This document shows, one piece after another, positions 1 to 58,223 of a stretch of DNA of 62,666 bases; positions within the stretch are counted from its first letter, which is position 1; each line of letters begins with the position of its first letter. A program made the position numbers and the translations under genes. The stretch is from Caedimonas sp. (lineage in GTDB: Bacteria; Pseudomonadota; Alphaproteobacteria; Caedimonadales; Caedimonadaceae). The DNA is taken from positions 1 through 62,666 of the forward strand of contig JAEUKR010000018.1 in NCBI GenBank assembly GCA_016794245.1. Direction: 5' to 3'. The notes under the pieces are model-generated. The model saw only the letters and a list, made by a program, of their open reading frames with translations. It was not told where the DNA came from and ran no database searches.

Positions 1-1
1 T

Positions 2-271
<270 letters not shown>

Positions 272-9225: not shown

Positions 9226-9900
9226 ATGTTAAGGTTAACGGTTATTATTATATTGATGGTTGCGGCGATCTTTTCCTTGGGAAAGGCGGGTGCCGTTTAT
9301 CTTGAAAATTATTACCCCCGTTTGGTGAAAATCCCTGAGAATGCCAAGGGTCTTATTTTGCTTGGAGGAAGTTTCCAAATGGAAAATTCTTCAGCGCGAG
9401 GGGTTATCTGTTACAATCCTCGCGGGGGTCGAATCATCGAATTCATGGAATTGGCGCAAAAGTATCCTCATTTGCCTTTGGTTTTCACAGGGGGAGCGAC
9501 AAAAGGCATTCCGGGGCGGCGCTCTGAAAGCGACATGGCGCGGCAACTTTTTGAAAATCTGAGATTGGATTTATCCCGCGTCCGCTTTGAAGATCAGTCG
9601 AATAATACCTTTGAAAATGCGACACTCACCTTCAAGATGGTTCAGCCTAAACCCGAAGATCAATGGGTTCTGGTCACTTCCGCCGTACATATGCCCCGAT
9701 CCGTTTCGCTTTTTCGTGCGGCTGGCTGGAATGTTATTCCTTATCCGGTAGACTATAATACGACAGGAAAAATCGGCGAAGTTCTGGATTTTGACATTTA
9801 CTCAGGATTTATAAGTTGGTCCCATAGTGTGCATGAATGGGGAGGTTTGCTAAACAGTCGTCTGAAGGGGGTAAGCCGGCAATTATTGCCGGATAAATAA
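9226..9900 (+). CDS. YdcF/SanA-like (DUF218) envelope protein
   Basis: This 224-residue protein has one N-terminal membrane anchor (about residues 4-24) and a periplasmic DUF218 domain. GLILLGGSF, PLVFTGGA, FEDQSNNTFENA and WVLVTSAVHMPRS are the conserved blocks. Members such as ElyC and SanA act in envelope and peptidoglycan precursor homeostasis. Upstream (about 9157-9185) lies the end of a family-A repeat (CCTTCGTCTCTCAAAATC), and a full family-A repeat begins exactly after its stop codon. Confidence 0.88.
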   Translation: MLRLTVIIILMVAAIFSLGKAGAVYLENYYPRLVKIPENAKGLILLGGSFQMENSSARGVICYNPRGGRIIEFMELAQKYPHLPLVFTGGATKGIPGRRSESDMARQLFENLRLDLSRVRFEDQSNNTFENATLTFKMVQPKPEDQWVLVTSAVHMPRSVSLFRAAGWNVIPYPVDYNTTGKIGEVLDFDIYSGFISWSHSVHEWGGLLNSRLKGVSRQLLPDK

Positions 9901-10012
9901 ACCCTTCGTCTTTCAGAATCCCCACGCCATCTTTGTCCACACAAAAAGTCTAAGGACGCGAGCAGGATGAAGCCCGATCCCCAACGCCCCTGAATTTTGA
10001 AAGACGACGGGC
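9901..10012. repeat. Family-A palindrome-ended repeat (full copy)
   Basis: This unit of about 112 bp has imperfect terminal inverted repeats: the left end is ACCCTTCGTCTTTCAGAATC, and the right end is GAATTTTGAAAGACGACGGG. Related copies occur in ubiA (14112-14228) and before pyrH (39725-39814), with partial copies near 9157 and 21919. Shared internal blocks include GCAGGATGAA/GCAGGACGAA. No open frame fills it. Size, inverted ends and dispersal resemble MITEs or Rickettsia palindromic elements. Confidence 0.7.
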
Positions 10013-10099
10013 ATAACAGTATTTCTCTGCCATTTTCTTTGCTTGCTCCTTTGCTTTCTTGCTATCTTGCCGCCTTGTTCATCAGGGAAAGGGGGCTTT

Positions 10100-13328: not shown

Positions 13329-13462
13329 AACGATGACCTTGATAAGGACTCAACTTAACAAAAGATCATCAGTGACATAAATCTGGTTCTTTGCCAAGTT
13401 TTTATTTGTAACAAAAGATTTCATTGGACTGTTCTTCGTCATGCCGTCAGAATCGCGGAATC

Positions 13463-14470
13463 ATGGGAAAGAAAATCACTTTTGTTATGAACCGTTTCAG
13501 TCCTTATGTTCAATTGGCGCGCCTGGATAAACCCACGGGGATCTGGTTATTGCTTCTGCCGTGTTGGTGGGGGCTTTTTCTCAGCAAGCCTGCTGAAATG
13601 CCTGTCAAAGAGATGACCTTGTTTCTATGGGGGGCTGTCCTGCTCAGAGGCGCAGGGTGCACCTATAACGACATCGTTGACCGCAAGTATGATGCGAAAG
13701 TGCGTCGGACGGCCTCAAGACCTTTGGCGGCGGGGGCTTTGACGCTCCATCAGGCCATCGGTTTTCTTGGCGTGCAACTCGTCGGCGGGTTCTGTGTGCT
13801 GATCTGTTTTCCCTCCCTTACGATACAACTTGGTCTTGCCTCGCTTATCCTTGTGGGACTTTATCCCTGGATGAAGCGCATAACCTGGTGGCCGCAAGCT
13901 TTCCTGGGTCTGACGTTTAATTGGGGCGTCCTTGCGGGATGGGCTTCCCTCAACCCCTCGCTCAGCAGCGCACCGGTTTTGCTTTACCTTGCAGGAATAT
14001 GCTGGACACTGGGGTATGATACGATTTATGCCTATCAAGATATCGAAGACGATATGCGTATCGGCGTTAAATCCTCTGCGATCGCCCTCCAACAACATCT
14101 CCCCAAAACATTTCGCCGAGTGGTCAGGTTCGGGCAAGGGCTTGGCAAATCCCGCGCGGTGTATGATCAGGATGTAAGCCGGACGACATCCGACACTCAA
14201 CACTCCCACAGTTTGAAAGACGAAGGGTATACATATGTTTTTTTGGGGATCACGTATGTCTTCATGGTGTTTTTCCTCACTCTCGCAGGCTTTTTGGAGG
14301 ATTTCTCGTGGCTGTATTATGCTGGCCTTGCTATCCTGGCTTTTCAGTTGGCCTGGCAAGTTGTGATGCTCAATATTCATAATCCTGATGACTGTATGGC
14401 CAAATTTAAATCTAATGTCTTGGCAGGCTTTTTAGTGCTTTTAGCCTTAATCTGCGGAAGCGCTCGGTAG
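13463..14470 (+). CDS. ubiA: 4-hydroxybenzoate polyprenyltransferase (UbiA) with repeat-encoded insertion
   Basis: This membrane prenyltransferase attaches the isoprenoid tail to 4-hydroxybenzoate in ubiquinone synthesis. Both Asp-rich Mg/diphosphate motifs are present: YNDIVDRKYD (68-77) and YDTIYAYQDIEDD (185-197). It has 335 residues from the ATG at 13463, where the family is usually about 290-300. The excess is a hydrophilic block at about 217-256 (ending SHSLKDEGY) between two membrane segments, encoded by a family-A repeat in frame. The start is uncertain: an in-frame upstream codon (13424) and an ATG at 13487 are alternatives. It is convergent with ligA. Confidence 0.93.
   Translation: MGKKITFVMNRFSPYVQLARLDKPTGIWLLLLPCWWGLFLSKPAEMPVKEMTLFLWGAVLLRGAGCTYNDIVDRKYDAKVRRTASRPLAAGALTLHQAIGFLGVQLVGGFCVLICFPSLTIQLGLASLILVGLYPWMKRITWWPQAFLGLTFNWGVLAGWASLNPSLSSAPVLLYLAGICWTLGYDTIYAYQDIEDDMRIGVKSSAIALQQHLPKTFRRVVRFGQGLGKSRAVYDQDVSRTTSDTQHSHSLKDEGYTYVFLGITYVFMVFFLTLAGFLEDFSWLYYAGLAILAFQLAWQVVMLNIHNPDDCMAKFKSNVLAGFLVLLALICGSAR
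14112..14228 (+). repeat. Family-A repeat inserted in frame within ubiA
   Basis: The right end TTTGAAAGACGAAGGGT matches the ends at 10012 (minor change) and 39814. The internal block ATCAGGATGTAAGCCGGA aligns with GCAGGATGAAGCCCGA of the 9901 copy and GCAGGACGAAACCTGA of the 39725 copy. The left boundary is approximate. It keeps the ubiA frame open and adds about 39 mostly polar residues after the second Asp-rich motif. Confidence 0.65.
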
Positions 14471-39701: not shown

Positions 39702-39724
39702 TAGGCAACCATAAAATCAGCTGT

Positions 39725-39814
39725 CAGATTCAAGCTGGGAAAGAAATCTGCGAGGAATGTGAGCAGGACGAAACCTGATGCACAACACCCCCCGGATTTT
39801 GAAAGGCGAAGGGT
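39725..39814 (+). repeat. Family-A repeat between tsf and pyrH
   Basis: The right end GGATTTTGAAAGGCGAAGGG matches those at 10012 and 14228. The internal GAGCAGGACGAAACCTGA aligns with both. The left terminal repeat is weak here, so this copy may be truncated. The element inserts an in-frame ATG (39778) upstream of pyrH, which produces a spurious longer frame, and it splits an otherwise compact translation operon. Confidence 0.65.
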
Positions 39815-39840
39815 CTGGTAAACAGAAAGTAGAAAGAGAG

Positions 39841-40626
39841 ATGACCAATCCTTCCTCACCTTTCCCGTATCGGCGCGTTCTGCTGAAGCTTTCGGGAGAA
39901 GCGCTCATGGGCGAGGGAAATTATGGCCTTGATCCCGCTACTGTCATGCGGATTGCCTCTGAAATCAGGGATGTTCATGACAGCGGCGTACAGGTTTGTC
40001 TGGTCGTGGGGGGAGGAAATATCTTTCGCGGCGTGAATGGCGCCGAACAGGGGATTGATCGCTCCACTTCAGACTACATGGGTATGCTGGCGACCATCAT
40101 GAATGCGCTTGCTCTTCAGAGCGCTCTTGAAAAAAAAGGGGTTCATACCCGCGTGCAATCGGCTATCCCCATGGAAACGGTATGTGAGCCTTATATTCGA
40201 CGAAAAGCTATTCATCACCTGGAAAAAGGTCGTGTCGTCATCTTCGCAGCCGGTACGGGCAATCCTTTTTTCACGACGGATACGGCGGCTGTTCTGCGTG
40301 CCAGTGAAATGGAATGCGATGTCTTGATGAAAGGAACAAAAGTTGATGGGGTGTATACAGCCGATCCTGTCAAAGACCCTTTGGCAAAACGCTATGAACA
40401 CTTGCCGTATTTGCGAATCCTTTCAGATAATCTTCGGGTGATGGATATGGCCGCTATTGCTTTGGCCCGCGACAATAATCTGCCGATTATCGTTTTCTCC
40501 ATTCAGGAAAATGACGGGTTTGTCCAGGCCGCTCAAGGGGCAGGCCGCTTTACTTCCGTGAGCGATGATGTGCATGGCCTTCGCCTGTCTCATTCACGCT
40601 CTATCAAACGAGGGGATCACACATGA
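39841..40626 (+). CDS. pyrH: Uridylate kinase (UMP kinase)
   Basis: This 261-residue hexameric UMP kinase converts UMP to [18 protein letters not shown] is the N-terminal phosphate-binding block. [13 protein letters not shown] and [16 protein letters not shown] are further signatures, and [15 protein letters not shown] is the ATP-site region. The ATG at 39841 (after AAAGAGAG) is the start; the upstream in-frame ATG lies in a repeat. The stop overlaps the frr start (ATGA), so the two genes are coupled. Confidence 0.97.
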
Positions 40627-43088: not shown

Positions 43089-43180
43089 AGACCTCTTGCA
43101 TAACCTATATCTGGCGGATTCTTTTGGCGTTAAAAGCTCGCTCGAAATCCTCACGCCATATCTGGTTCTGCAAGAGGTCT
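43089..43180. repeat. Family-B repeat with perfect 12-bp terminal inverted repeats
   Basis: AGACCTCTTGCA (43089-43100) and TGCAAGAGGTCT (43169-43180) are perfect inverted ends of a 92-bp unit. The similarity continues inward: AACCTATATCTGGCG on the left and, in reverse complement, AACCAGATATGGCG on the right. The interior GAGCTTTTAACGCCA (reverse strand) recurs at 22440. No coding capacity. A MITE-like or palindromic element, or a dual-strand terminator for the gene before it. Confidence 0.75.
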
Positions 43181-43315
43181 TTTGACAACCCAAACAAGAG
43201 GTAGGGTAGGAGATTTTTAAAGATCAAAGTTATAAACCTTTTTTCTTTATGAAAAAAAAGGTATTTATAAAGATACCTGAAAATCATAAACTATTTTGAA
43301 AGAAAATCGGTTTTC

Positions 43316-44536
43316 ATGAAGATAGTAAAATCCTCCCAACGTCTCTTGTTTATTGATCATTGTCGGGCATTTCTGGTGTCTTTGGTGGTGCTGGATCATG
43401 CCATGCACGCTTATTCCGAGCATTACGCAAAATACTGGTTTCTCCCTGATTTCGACCGCAGCATCTTTTTTGATGTTCTGCATTTACATAATGACAGTTT
43501 CATGATGCCTTCCCTGTTTTTTCTGGCGGGGCTTTTTATTCTTCCTTCGCTGCAACGGCGGGGCTACCTGGATTTTCTCAAAGAACGAGCGCTGCGCCTA
43601 GGGGTTCCTTTTATTATCGGCGTTCCCCTGATTTGTCCCTTATTGTCTTATCCAAAATACAAAATGTATGAAGATCCGACGATCGGCTATTGGGAATATG
43701 TGTCTACCGTTTTCATCGACAAACCCCAAGCCGGTCCTTTCTGGTTCCTGTATTATCTATCGCTTCTCACGATCACAGCCATCATCGTATATGCGATTTT
43801 TCCAAAATTTTACAAGGGGCTTGGCGCATTCTGCCGTTGGTTCCTGAAAAAACCTCTTTATGGATTCGGCATCGTTTTTCTTGCGGGAGCCGTGATGATG
43901 GGGTTGAGCGATCTTATATGGGGCGCTCCCTGGTGGATTGGATTTGGGAAGCTTTTCTATGTCCGCGCGTCGCGCTTTATGCTAAAGACTTTTCTGTTTT
44001 TCCTGGGAATCGGATTCAGTGAATGCGGACTCCTGCAAAATCAGGTGGCGTGGAAGAACTTAAGCGATCATTGGAAAGAGTGGACTCTGTTTGCCGTGAC
44101 CATCGGGATTATCTATATTTCCTATTCCCTGCTTTATTTCGATGCGGGAGCCTATAATAACGGGATCCGCCTATACTTCCATCAAGGGGGAGAATGGAAA
44201 GGTTTTTGGCCTGTTTTTGGGGAATTTGCGCCTCCTGTGCTGACACGAACAACGTTATTGACGCTTTTTATCCTGGGACAACTGATGGCTTACCTGGCTA
44301 TATTCCATCGTTTTATAAATCATGCGTCTCCTTCCTGGCAATCTCTTGCCATGGCTTCTTACGGGGTTTATCTCATTCATGAGCCTTTTGTCGTTTGGAC
44401 ACATTCGTTCTTTCATGGCACCGACGTGCCGATCCTGATCAGGTTTGTTATCAGTGGCTTTGGCTCTCTCTTCATTTCATGGGCGATCGTCAGTCATGGC
44501 TTGCTTAAAATCCCCCTTTTCAGACGTATCTTGTAA
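43316..44536 (+). CDS. Membrane acyltransferase-3 family protein (OpgC-like), copy 1
   Basis: This 406-residue integral membrane protein has about ten helices. The N terminus LLFIDHCRAFLVSLVVLDHA with the catalytic-type His and the following MPSLFFLAGLF are typical of Acyl_transf_3 (OpgC/OafA group). GAPWWIGFGKLFYVRASRF and ASYGVYLIHEPFVVW, near the C terminus, also fit. Such enzymes acylate periplasmic glucans, LPS sugars or other exported carbohydrates. The next gene is a clear paralogue (GAPWWIGF also present). Confidence 0.88.
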   Translation: MKIVKSSQRLLFIDHCRAFLVSLVVLDHAMHAYSEHYAKYWFLPDFDRSIFFDVLHLHNDSFMMPSLFFLAGLFILPSLQRRGYLDFLKERALRLGVPFIIGVPLICPLLSYPKYKMYEDPTIGYWEYVSTVFIDKPQAGPFWFLYYLSLLTITAIIVYAIFPKFYKGLGAFCRWFLKKPLYGFGIVFLAGAVMMGLSDLIWGAPWWIGFGKLFYVRASRFMLKTFLFFLGIGFSECGLLQNQVAWKNLSDHWKEWTLFAVTIGIIYISYSLLYFDAGAYNNGIRLYFHQGGEWKGFWPVFGEFAPPVLTRTTLLTLFILGQLMAYLAIFHRFINHASPSWQSLAMASYGVYLIHEPFVVWTHSFFHGTDVPILIRFVISGFGSLFISWAIVSHGLLKIPLFRRIL

Positions 44537-44550
44537 GGACTTTTATCATC

Positions 44551-45801
44551 ATGCGCGCACGCGAAACCTATATCGACCATTTGCGAGGCTTTATGTTCGC
44601 CTTGATGGCCTTCGATCATGCTCTCCATGCTTATGCCCAGAACTGGGGACGTTTCTGGTTTATTCAGGACTTTGATCGCAGTCTTGTCTGGGACGCGCTC
44701 TATCTGTTCGATCAAAGTATCATCATGCCAATGATTTTCTTTATGTCCGGTTTATACGTGTTGCCCTCTCTTGAAAGGCGAGGGATCAAAGAGTATCTGA
44801 AACATCGGTTCGTAAAGCTTGGCATCCCTTTTATTGTCTGTATTCCGTTGATTGTGCCTCTTTTGTCTTTTCCTCGCCATCGACTTACCGTCGATCCTTC
44901 CATGGATTACTGGACATATTGGGCAAAGGTTTTTTTCTTCGATAAAATGCAGGCAGGGCCTCTTTGGGTTTGCTATGCTCTCTTCCTTTTCAGCTTTGTA
45001 TTGATCTTTCTGAATGCTCTTTTCCCTTCCCTTGTTCCAGTCCTCGGTCGATGGATGAAGCGTGTGGCCACTCAAAAGCCTCTTCAGGGTCTTCTTGTCG
45101 TTATGGCGACAAGCGCATTCATTCTGGGGATCACAGACCTTATATGGGGCGCGCCGTGGTGGATCGGTTTCTGGAAAGTGTTCTACTTTCAGGGGGCACG
45201 ATTTTTGCTTTATGTTCTCTATTTCGTTTTGGGTGCCGGCATTCGTGCTTCAGGATTGCTGGACGACAAGTCTTTCCTTGAGCATTTCTCTGGTCGATGG
45301 CGCCTGTGGCTTGGGCTTATGCTTGTCGCAGGACTCTGTTACGCAGGCTATGCCATACGTTTTTTCGATGGCGGAGCCTACAATGACGATTTCCGACGCC
45401 ACACGCTGGCATTCTTTGCCCAAGGCGGATCATGGGTCGACTTCTGGTCTTTCATGTCAGTTTATGGATTTGAAATTTTAAAGGTTGCTGCGCCAGGAGT
45501 CTTGATACGAACCTCTTTACATGGCGTGTTGTGCATATTCCAAGCATTATTTTTGCTGAGTGTCTTTTATCGGTTCTGCACCAAACCAACGTACATGTGG
45601 CAATCGCTCGCGCGTTGCTGTTACGCTATTTTCCTGACACATGAAATGATGGTCATTTGGCTTCAATATGGACTCATCGGGGTTGAATGGCCAATTTTTG
45701 TAAAGATTTTCATTGTTTTTGGGCTAGGGTTTGGCGGCTCGTGGCTCATTTCTGACAGGATTCTGTTAAAAATCCCGGTTCTGCAAAAGGTATTGGGATA
45801 G
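44551..45801 (+). CDS. Membrane acyltransferase-3 family protein (OpgC-like), copy 2
   Basis: This 416-residue paralogue of the preceding gene shares its helix layout and stretches such as ITDLIWGAPWWIGFWKVFYF and LPSLERRGIKEYLKHR. YIDHLRGFMFALMAFDHALH matches the family's N terminus and LARCCYAIFLTHEMMVIW the C-terminal His-containing helix. Only 14 bp separate the two genes, so they form an operon made by tandem duplication. The two proteins have diverged widely, which suggests different acceptors or donors. Confidence 0.88.
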   Translation: MRARETYIDHLRGFMFALMAFDHALHAYAQNWGRFWFIQDFDRSLVWDALYLFDQSIIMPMIFFMSGLYVLPSLERRGIKEYLKHRFVKLGIPFIVCIPLIVPLLSFPRHRLTVDPSMDYWTYWAKVFFFDKMQAGPLWVCYALFLFSFVLIFLNALFPSLVPVLGRWMKRVATQKPLQGLLVVMATSAFILGITDLIWGAPWWIGFWKVFYFQGARFLLYVLYFVLGAGIRASGLLDDKSFLEHFSGRWRLWLGLMLVAGLCYAGYAIRFFDGGAYNDDFRRHTLAFFAQGGSWVDFWSFMSVYGFEILKVAAPGVLIRTSLHGVLCIFQALFLLSVFYRFCTKPTYMWQSLARCCYAIFLTHEMMVIWLQYGLIGVEWPIFVKIFIVFGLGFGGSWLISDRILLKIPVLQKVLG

Positions 45802-57881: not shown

Positions 57882-58223
57882 GGTTCCTCTGAATAACGGA
57901 ATCTCACTCTCCCCTATCCCATAGCATATTCTGCGCCCAACACCAACCGGGAAGCGCTGCTATCATACTTCTTTCTTACCTGGAATCTGGCGCACGCTTT
58001 TGCCTTAAAATCCCCACGCCATATCTGGTTAGAAAAGAAGCCTATTAAAAGCCGCATAAATTGCGGTTTCTTGCCTTTTGATCCTCTATCCTTGGAGCTG
58101 TTTCAACTTCATTGTGATTCATGTCTCATATTGTTATAGAATGCTTTAAAGTCGTTTGATCTTCGTGTACATATGGTTTGACATGAAATTTTTTGTCAAA
58201 ATGCCTAAGAAGCAGGATTTTCC
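57882..58223. other. gltX / MFS divergent gap with a family-B repeat
   Basis: This 340-bp region contains a family-B unit at 57966-58046 and an AT-rich stretch before the MFS start (58140-58200). The MFS ATG at 58224 is preceded by AAGCAGGA. No RNA gene or small protein gene is evident. Confidence 0.45.
57966..58046 (-). repeat. Family-B repeat copy between gltX and MFS
   Basis: CTTCTTTCTTACCTGGAATC and, at the other end, TATCTGGTTAGAAAAGAAG are roughly inverted. On the minus strand it reads CCAGATATGGCGTGGGGATT and AAGGCAAAAGC, nearly as GGATCTGGCGCGGGGATTTT and AGGCAAAAGC at 16702-16733. These two copies are the closest pair of the family. Confidence 0.65.

Follow-up and report, generated by a model that had tools for sequence, protein, structure and literature searches.

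The ubiA gene in the window, by which we mean the whole stretch of 62,666 nucleotides analysed here, contains an in-frame copy of a dispersed palindromic repeat. Very probably, this block goes back to an old insertion of a MITE of the ERIC/IRU/RU-1 kind, a non-autonomous and long-palindromic element that has multiplied to at least 146 copies in this reduced genome and whose in-frame landing, in the +1 frame, adds a tolerated polar loop to the protein. The host is taken to be a member of the Alphaproteobacteria, because the best plasmid-borne relatives of both GlmS and LigA of the window all belong to this class. The case links two literatures, namely that on the enterobacterial ERIC repeats and that on the protein-coding palindromes of Rickettsia, and offers a second, apparently independent instance in which parts of conserved proteins are built by a mobile repeat. 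It also touches on the assumptions about taxonomic range that are made in ERIC-PCR.

The ubiA open reading frame spans positions 13424-14470, and its likely start is the ATG at 13463 (Table 1). The product scores above the cut-off of the TIGR01474 (ubiA_proteo) model. An earlier note, made from the sequence alone, had proposed that a repeat was inserted in frame into this gene with both Asp-rich motifs intact, and this is borne out by the covariance-model match and by comparison with relatives. The block is a 134-nt copy of the repeat, and a chance match is excluded. In 16 of 16 UbiA homologues, taken from other genera and including three of the same family, a clean gap of 44 columns lies opposite the block, and none of them carries a homologous loop. 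Likewise, BLAST alignments of UbiA to 57 genomes break at about query positions 222-270. The extra block is therefore confirmed, but the extent first given for it (39 residues, 14112-14228) was too short, since the copy covers 14098-14231. The insert begins about 15 residues past the second Asp-rich motif and is markedly polar (GRAVY -1.08); the C-terminal hydrophobic helices come next, and both the C-terminal membrane part and the C-terminal motif are intact. Its predicted translation includes the peptides AVYDQDVSR and TTSDTQHSHSLK. The block is presumably translated, and the enlarged UbiA is presumably functional and active. Alignments to the solved homologues 4od4, 6m31 and 4tq3 reach the insertion site and no further, and an AlphaFold model from the single sequence was of unusable quality (mean pLDDT 46). 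The hairpin has been lost from the ubiA copy (folding z +0.9, as against -5 to -7.5 in more intact copies) while the intact copies still fold, and for this reason the ubiA copy is probably an old one.

Table 1. Features of the window that bear on the ubiA insert and on nearby copies of the repeat.
Feature	Position	Strand	Remarks
ubiA, 4-hydroxybenzoate octaprenyltransferase with insert	13463..14470	+	335 aa; PF01040 and TIGR01474 (320 bits, cut-off 275)
First Asp-rich motif of UbiA, NDIVD, residue 69 onward	13667..13681	+	intact
Second Asp-rich motif of UbiA, YQDIEDD, residue 191 onward	14033..14053	+	intact
ERIC-like copy, in frame within ubiA	14098..14231	+	residues ~212-256, 44-45 aa added; 80 bits, E 2.5e-16
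Intergenic ERIC-like copy, variant 5' part, downstream of glmS	9898..10015	+	covariance model, 60.6 bits
ERIC-like copy between tsf and pyrH	39715..39817	+	40.8 bits; 3' end open in frame with pyrH from upstream ATG 39778

A blastn search with positions 14100-14240 found 42 other places at E<0.004. A covariance model (R1), built from 26 copies that all come from the genome of the window, detects at least 146 copies at E<0.002 in this 1.33-Mb genome; this figure is a minimum, as the scoring covered only 150 of the 916 first-look candidates and more copies were seen in further stretches. The repeat is a long imperfect palindrome of about 128 bp with the consensus TATACCC...GGGTATA, and the consensus of about 128 nt from the first aligned copies has matching ends (TATACCCAAAGGATTTC...TTTGAAAGACGAAGGGTATA). 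Intact copies fold end to end as one hairpin (-42 to -59 kcal/mol, z -5.3 to -7.5), and 86 of the 146 copies start with TA, while 83 end with it. Nearly all copies are intergenic and dispersed, and about five of the 146 are internal to conserved genes.

The earlier note had also suggested looking for the same inserted peptide in other genes, and this genome proves to have at least four to eight genes of this kind, ubiA among them. Besides ubiA, in-frame copies with homology on both sides are found in ygfZ, folC and murG. YgfZ/CAF17 and FolC show a gap against their relatives of the same kind as UbiA, and in MurG the block interrupts the N-terminal glycosyltransferase domain (model match E 4.8e-6). 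In-frame copies are probably also present in rsm22, an amino-acid permease gene, a DUF2155 gene and the tail of tolR, which were placed by domain matches rather than by comparison with homologues: in the first three the block lies beside recognised domains, and in TolR it forms the C-terminal tail. The copies in FolC and Rsm22 are of a form of about 80 nt with an internal deletion. Each protein gains about 26-45 residues, with no visible damage. Long antisense or 5' open reading frames over other copies were considered as further internal insertions and rejected, as by eye they are upstream extensions of xseA, thiolase, lipoprotein and frataxin-like genes. As a separate observation, the C-terminal CAF17 domain of YgfZ has a second extra stretch (MRCEPRASSLSPKETSEASRDDTRQ...), for which no repeat match was found among the genome stretches compared.

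All the gene inserts are read in one frame, which gives a peptide of the form ...PKGFQ..HPHSLKDEGY. The consensus has three open frames, +1 and two antisense, of which +1 encodes the most hydrophilic peptide (GRAVY -1.31, no cysteine); those of the antisense frames have GRAVY values of -0.43 (with three cysteines) and +0.76. Every one of the five gene-internal copies from the frame-blind model search lies in +1, the permease copy weakly so owing to indels. With three frames equally open, the chance of one shared frame is about 0.012 for the four firm copies and 0.004 for all five; MurG, DUF2155 and TolR were left out of this count, because the peptide search that added them is biased to +1. 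In addition, divergence from the consensus at codon positions 1, 2 and 3 is 0.24, 0.19 and 0.30 in the in-gene copies, as against 0.21, 0.22 and 0.24 in the intergenic ones (resampling P 0.017, from five in-gene copies only). Because only five copies contribute, this is modest evidence, which may point to weak purifying selection.

In Rfam, the element gave a subthreshold match over its full length to one family, V_AS5, and to no other, and because of this match the element was tested against ERIC. Public records were searched with the classical core of ERIC, which yielded eight enterobacterial copies, from E. coli, Klebsiella, Pantoea and Salmonella. In 16 kb of sequence, R1 gives a match to every one of the eight that covers positions 1-128; the E-values of seven of them run from 4.8e-13 to 7.6e-5, and the eighth has 0.0025. 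Pairwise alignment against dinucleotide shuffles gives z 9.9-19.8 for six of the eight, while two align poorly (z 2-3). A joint alignment shows common blocks along the full length, namely TAtACcC, AGGCGG, TCCC, TAAGTAnGTGA, CCAAC and TTGAAagacGAaGGGTATA. Judged by these alignments, the homology of the element with ERIC/IRU/RU-1, a 127-bp MITE of the Enterobacterales, extends over its whole length. We call it ERIC-like rather than ERIC in the strict sense, because its host is alphaproteobacterial and thus lies outside the Enterobacterales and Gammaproteobacteria. With ERIC it shares its length (127-128 bp), its TA-ended TATACCC...GGGTATA termini, a palindrome over the whole length and its mostly intergenic, dispersed and multicopy occurrence, and ERIC open reading frames, too, are at times fused in frame to genes, as Delihas described for enterobacterial genes in 2007 (PMC2759123). 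It differs from ERIC in its host, in a mean identity of about 56% (this is the value to enterobacterial and other-class copies; it is 66% to those of the alphaproteobacterium G480), in its density of at least 146 copies in 1.33 Mb, in a main form that would add 126 nt and hence whole codons, and in its internal in-frame inserts, all in one frame, in several conserved genes. The earlier note knew of no such case for its repeat family and missed that in-frame ERIC insertion has been known since 2007; the alphaproteobacterial ubiA case is a variant of it. No report of ERIC-type elements in alphaproteobacteria was found in a partial literature search. As for the Vibrio sRNA family V_AS5 (RF02818), which matches the element from end to end, it may itself be an ERIC copy and not a distinct RNA gene.

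The mechanism that we propose starts from the known behaviour of ERIC, which inserts at TA and duplicates it (PMC2759123). An insertion of this kind, with its 2-bp duplication, would add the length of the element minus 2 nt, so that the 128-nt and 80-nt forms would add 126 and 78 nt, i.e., whole codons. The copies within genes measure 134, 137, 83 and 80 nt, each of which leaves a remainder of 2 on division by 3, and at positions 34144-34145 of contig C18 two tandem copies share 2 nt; both observations would agree with a TA target duplication. Only one of the frames is open and at the same time hydrophilic (IPKGFQNVGRRTSGESRAAYNKYVSRTNPDVQHPHSLKDEGY); a copy that lands in it would give the protein a polar loop, and such a loop would be tolerated at sites within surface loops. 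In UbiA, this site would be the loop that leads from the second Asp-rich motif to the following transmembrane helix. Copies that land at other places or in other frames would be purged, and the survivors would therefore be rare and share a frame. The small number of copies within genes would thus reflect selection against insertion, with tolerated loops as survivors. Should the bias in frame and length be genuine, it would become testable whether such elements are selected for tolerance inside proteins. Mobilisation would presumably depend on a transposase supplied in trans. A search of the genome for candidates found neither Y1_Tnp (RAYT) nor DDE_3 (IS630-type) domains, and to our knowledge no transposase of ERIC's own has been described. 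A REP/REPIN element with its RAYT was rejected on the absence of the Y1 transposase (PF01797) from the genome, which is 95.7% complete.

Several other explanations of the UbiA loop have been weighed against an ERIC-like insertion. Loops past the second Asp-rich motif vary somewhat in length in the UbiA family, and the block might accordingly be an ordinary lineage-specific extension with a coincidental likeness to the repeat; however, the chance of this is practically nil, as the profile match, at E 2.5e-16 to a repeat of at least 146 copies, refutes it, and the gap in 16 of 16 homologues and the recurrence of its peptide in further proteins, YgfZ and FolC among them, also speak against it. 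It is improbable that the insertion inactivated ubiA and that the gene is decaying, still free of stop codons by chance. The genome is indeed reduced and the ubiA copy old and diverged, whereas the 335-residue frame is open, both Asp-rich motifs and the C-terminal motif are kept, the TIGR01474 score is still over its cut-off, the in-gene copies carry a codon-position signal, and the sole other UbiA-superfamily match in the genome is a paralogue, 29% identical. The repeat peptide might instead have been co-opted for a function common to the host proteins, such as interaction, localisation or stability. We consider this quite unlikely: although up to eight proteins share the C-terminal peptide HPHSLKDEGY and the in-gene copies may be under weak purifying selection, the proteins that carry it have neither place nor role in common, and the recurrence of the peptide follows from the element's own sequence.

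The Rickettsia palindromic elements (RPEs), which the earlier note had named as the precedent, call for a closer comparison. RPEs are palindromes of 105-146 bp that occur in frame inside conserved genes of reduced alphaproteobacteria (PMC2229807, PMC10969869), and nearly half of those reported sit in genes (PMC10969869). The size class, the long palindromic stem-loop, the reduced alphaproteobacterial host and the in-frame insertion in conserved genes are all common to the element described here, and thus the precedent stands as regards behaviour. It very probably fails as regards sequence family, since the element is of ERIC type, matching enterobacterial copies from end to end, and in addition most copies here are intergenic. 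NCBIfam includes RPE-domain models, and the consensus insert peptide has no match among the models of that collection. There is, on this evidence, only a slight likelihood that the element represents a genuine RPE family, or that it is RPE-like, arose independently and resembles ERIC by convergence.

The distribution of the ERIC-like element is patchy, which could reflect transfer or loss. Among 249 species across the phylum, six others have matches, five of them from other classes, with genomes of 3.6-5 Mb, and one from the same class. Among 385 species of the class, five others have matches (G480, G555, G484, G022 and G114), all with genomes of 1.6-2.3 Mb. G007, from the same order, has a version with a diverged internal part, and a search of three family mates found no element. 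The elements of G480, G555, G484, G114 and G007, which are small-genome alphaproteobacteria, are matched end to end by R1, but these genomes hold fewer copies than that of the window (1-21 at E<=1e-4). Related ERIC-like elements were observed in five stretches from other small-genome alphaproteobacteria, with up to 21 copies in G480. A pattern scan of genome contigs found no other carrier, and its one match in Bacteroidales looks like chance; plasmid records held no near copy of the element. In a small tree, the elements of alphaproteobacteria are separated from those of other classes, which group together. As a tentative scenario, to which we give somewhat less than even chances, the ERIC superfamily would not be peculiar to Gammaproteobacteria. 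It would represent a MITE lineage, either older or spread horizontally, that entered alphaproteobacteria with small genomes, which are probably associated with hosts, and there evolved a whole-codon form (net gain 126 or 78 nt) whose frame is open, hydrophilic and protein-compatible, repeatedly lengthening housekeeping enzymes independently of RPEs.

Several further observations concern the repeats themselves. The ATG inside the copy between tsf and pyrH would, if used (39778-40626), extend the N-terminus of PyrH in the frame of the gene inserts. Three other stretches of the genome and the copy downstream of glmS combine different 5' parts (GGATTTTTAGGCAAAAG..., CCAGATTTAGTCCAG... and CAAAAAGTCTAAGGA) with an ERIC-like 3' part, which suggests modular or recombined repeats. 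A second dispersed repeat family is present at 43145-43190 and 58008-58053 of the window and in other stretches of the genome, where it is sometimes joined to ERIC-like copies; CACGCCATATCTGGTT occurs in 9 and AGACCTCTTGCA in 12 of the 114 own-genome stretches. Finally, an 85-nt direct repeat in the window (43899-43983 and 45125-45209; 72% identity, 1226 bases apart) probably represents duplicated genes.
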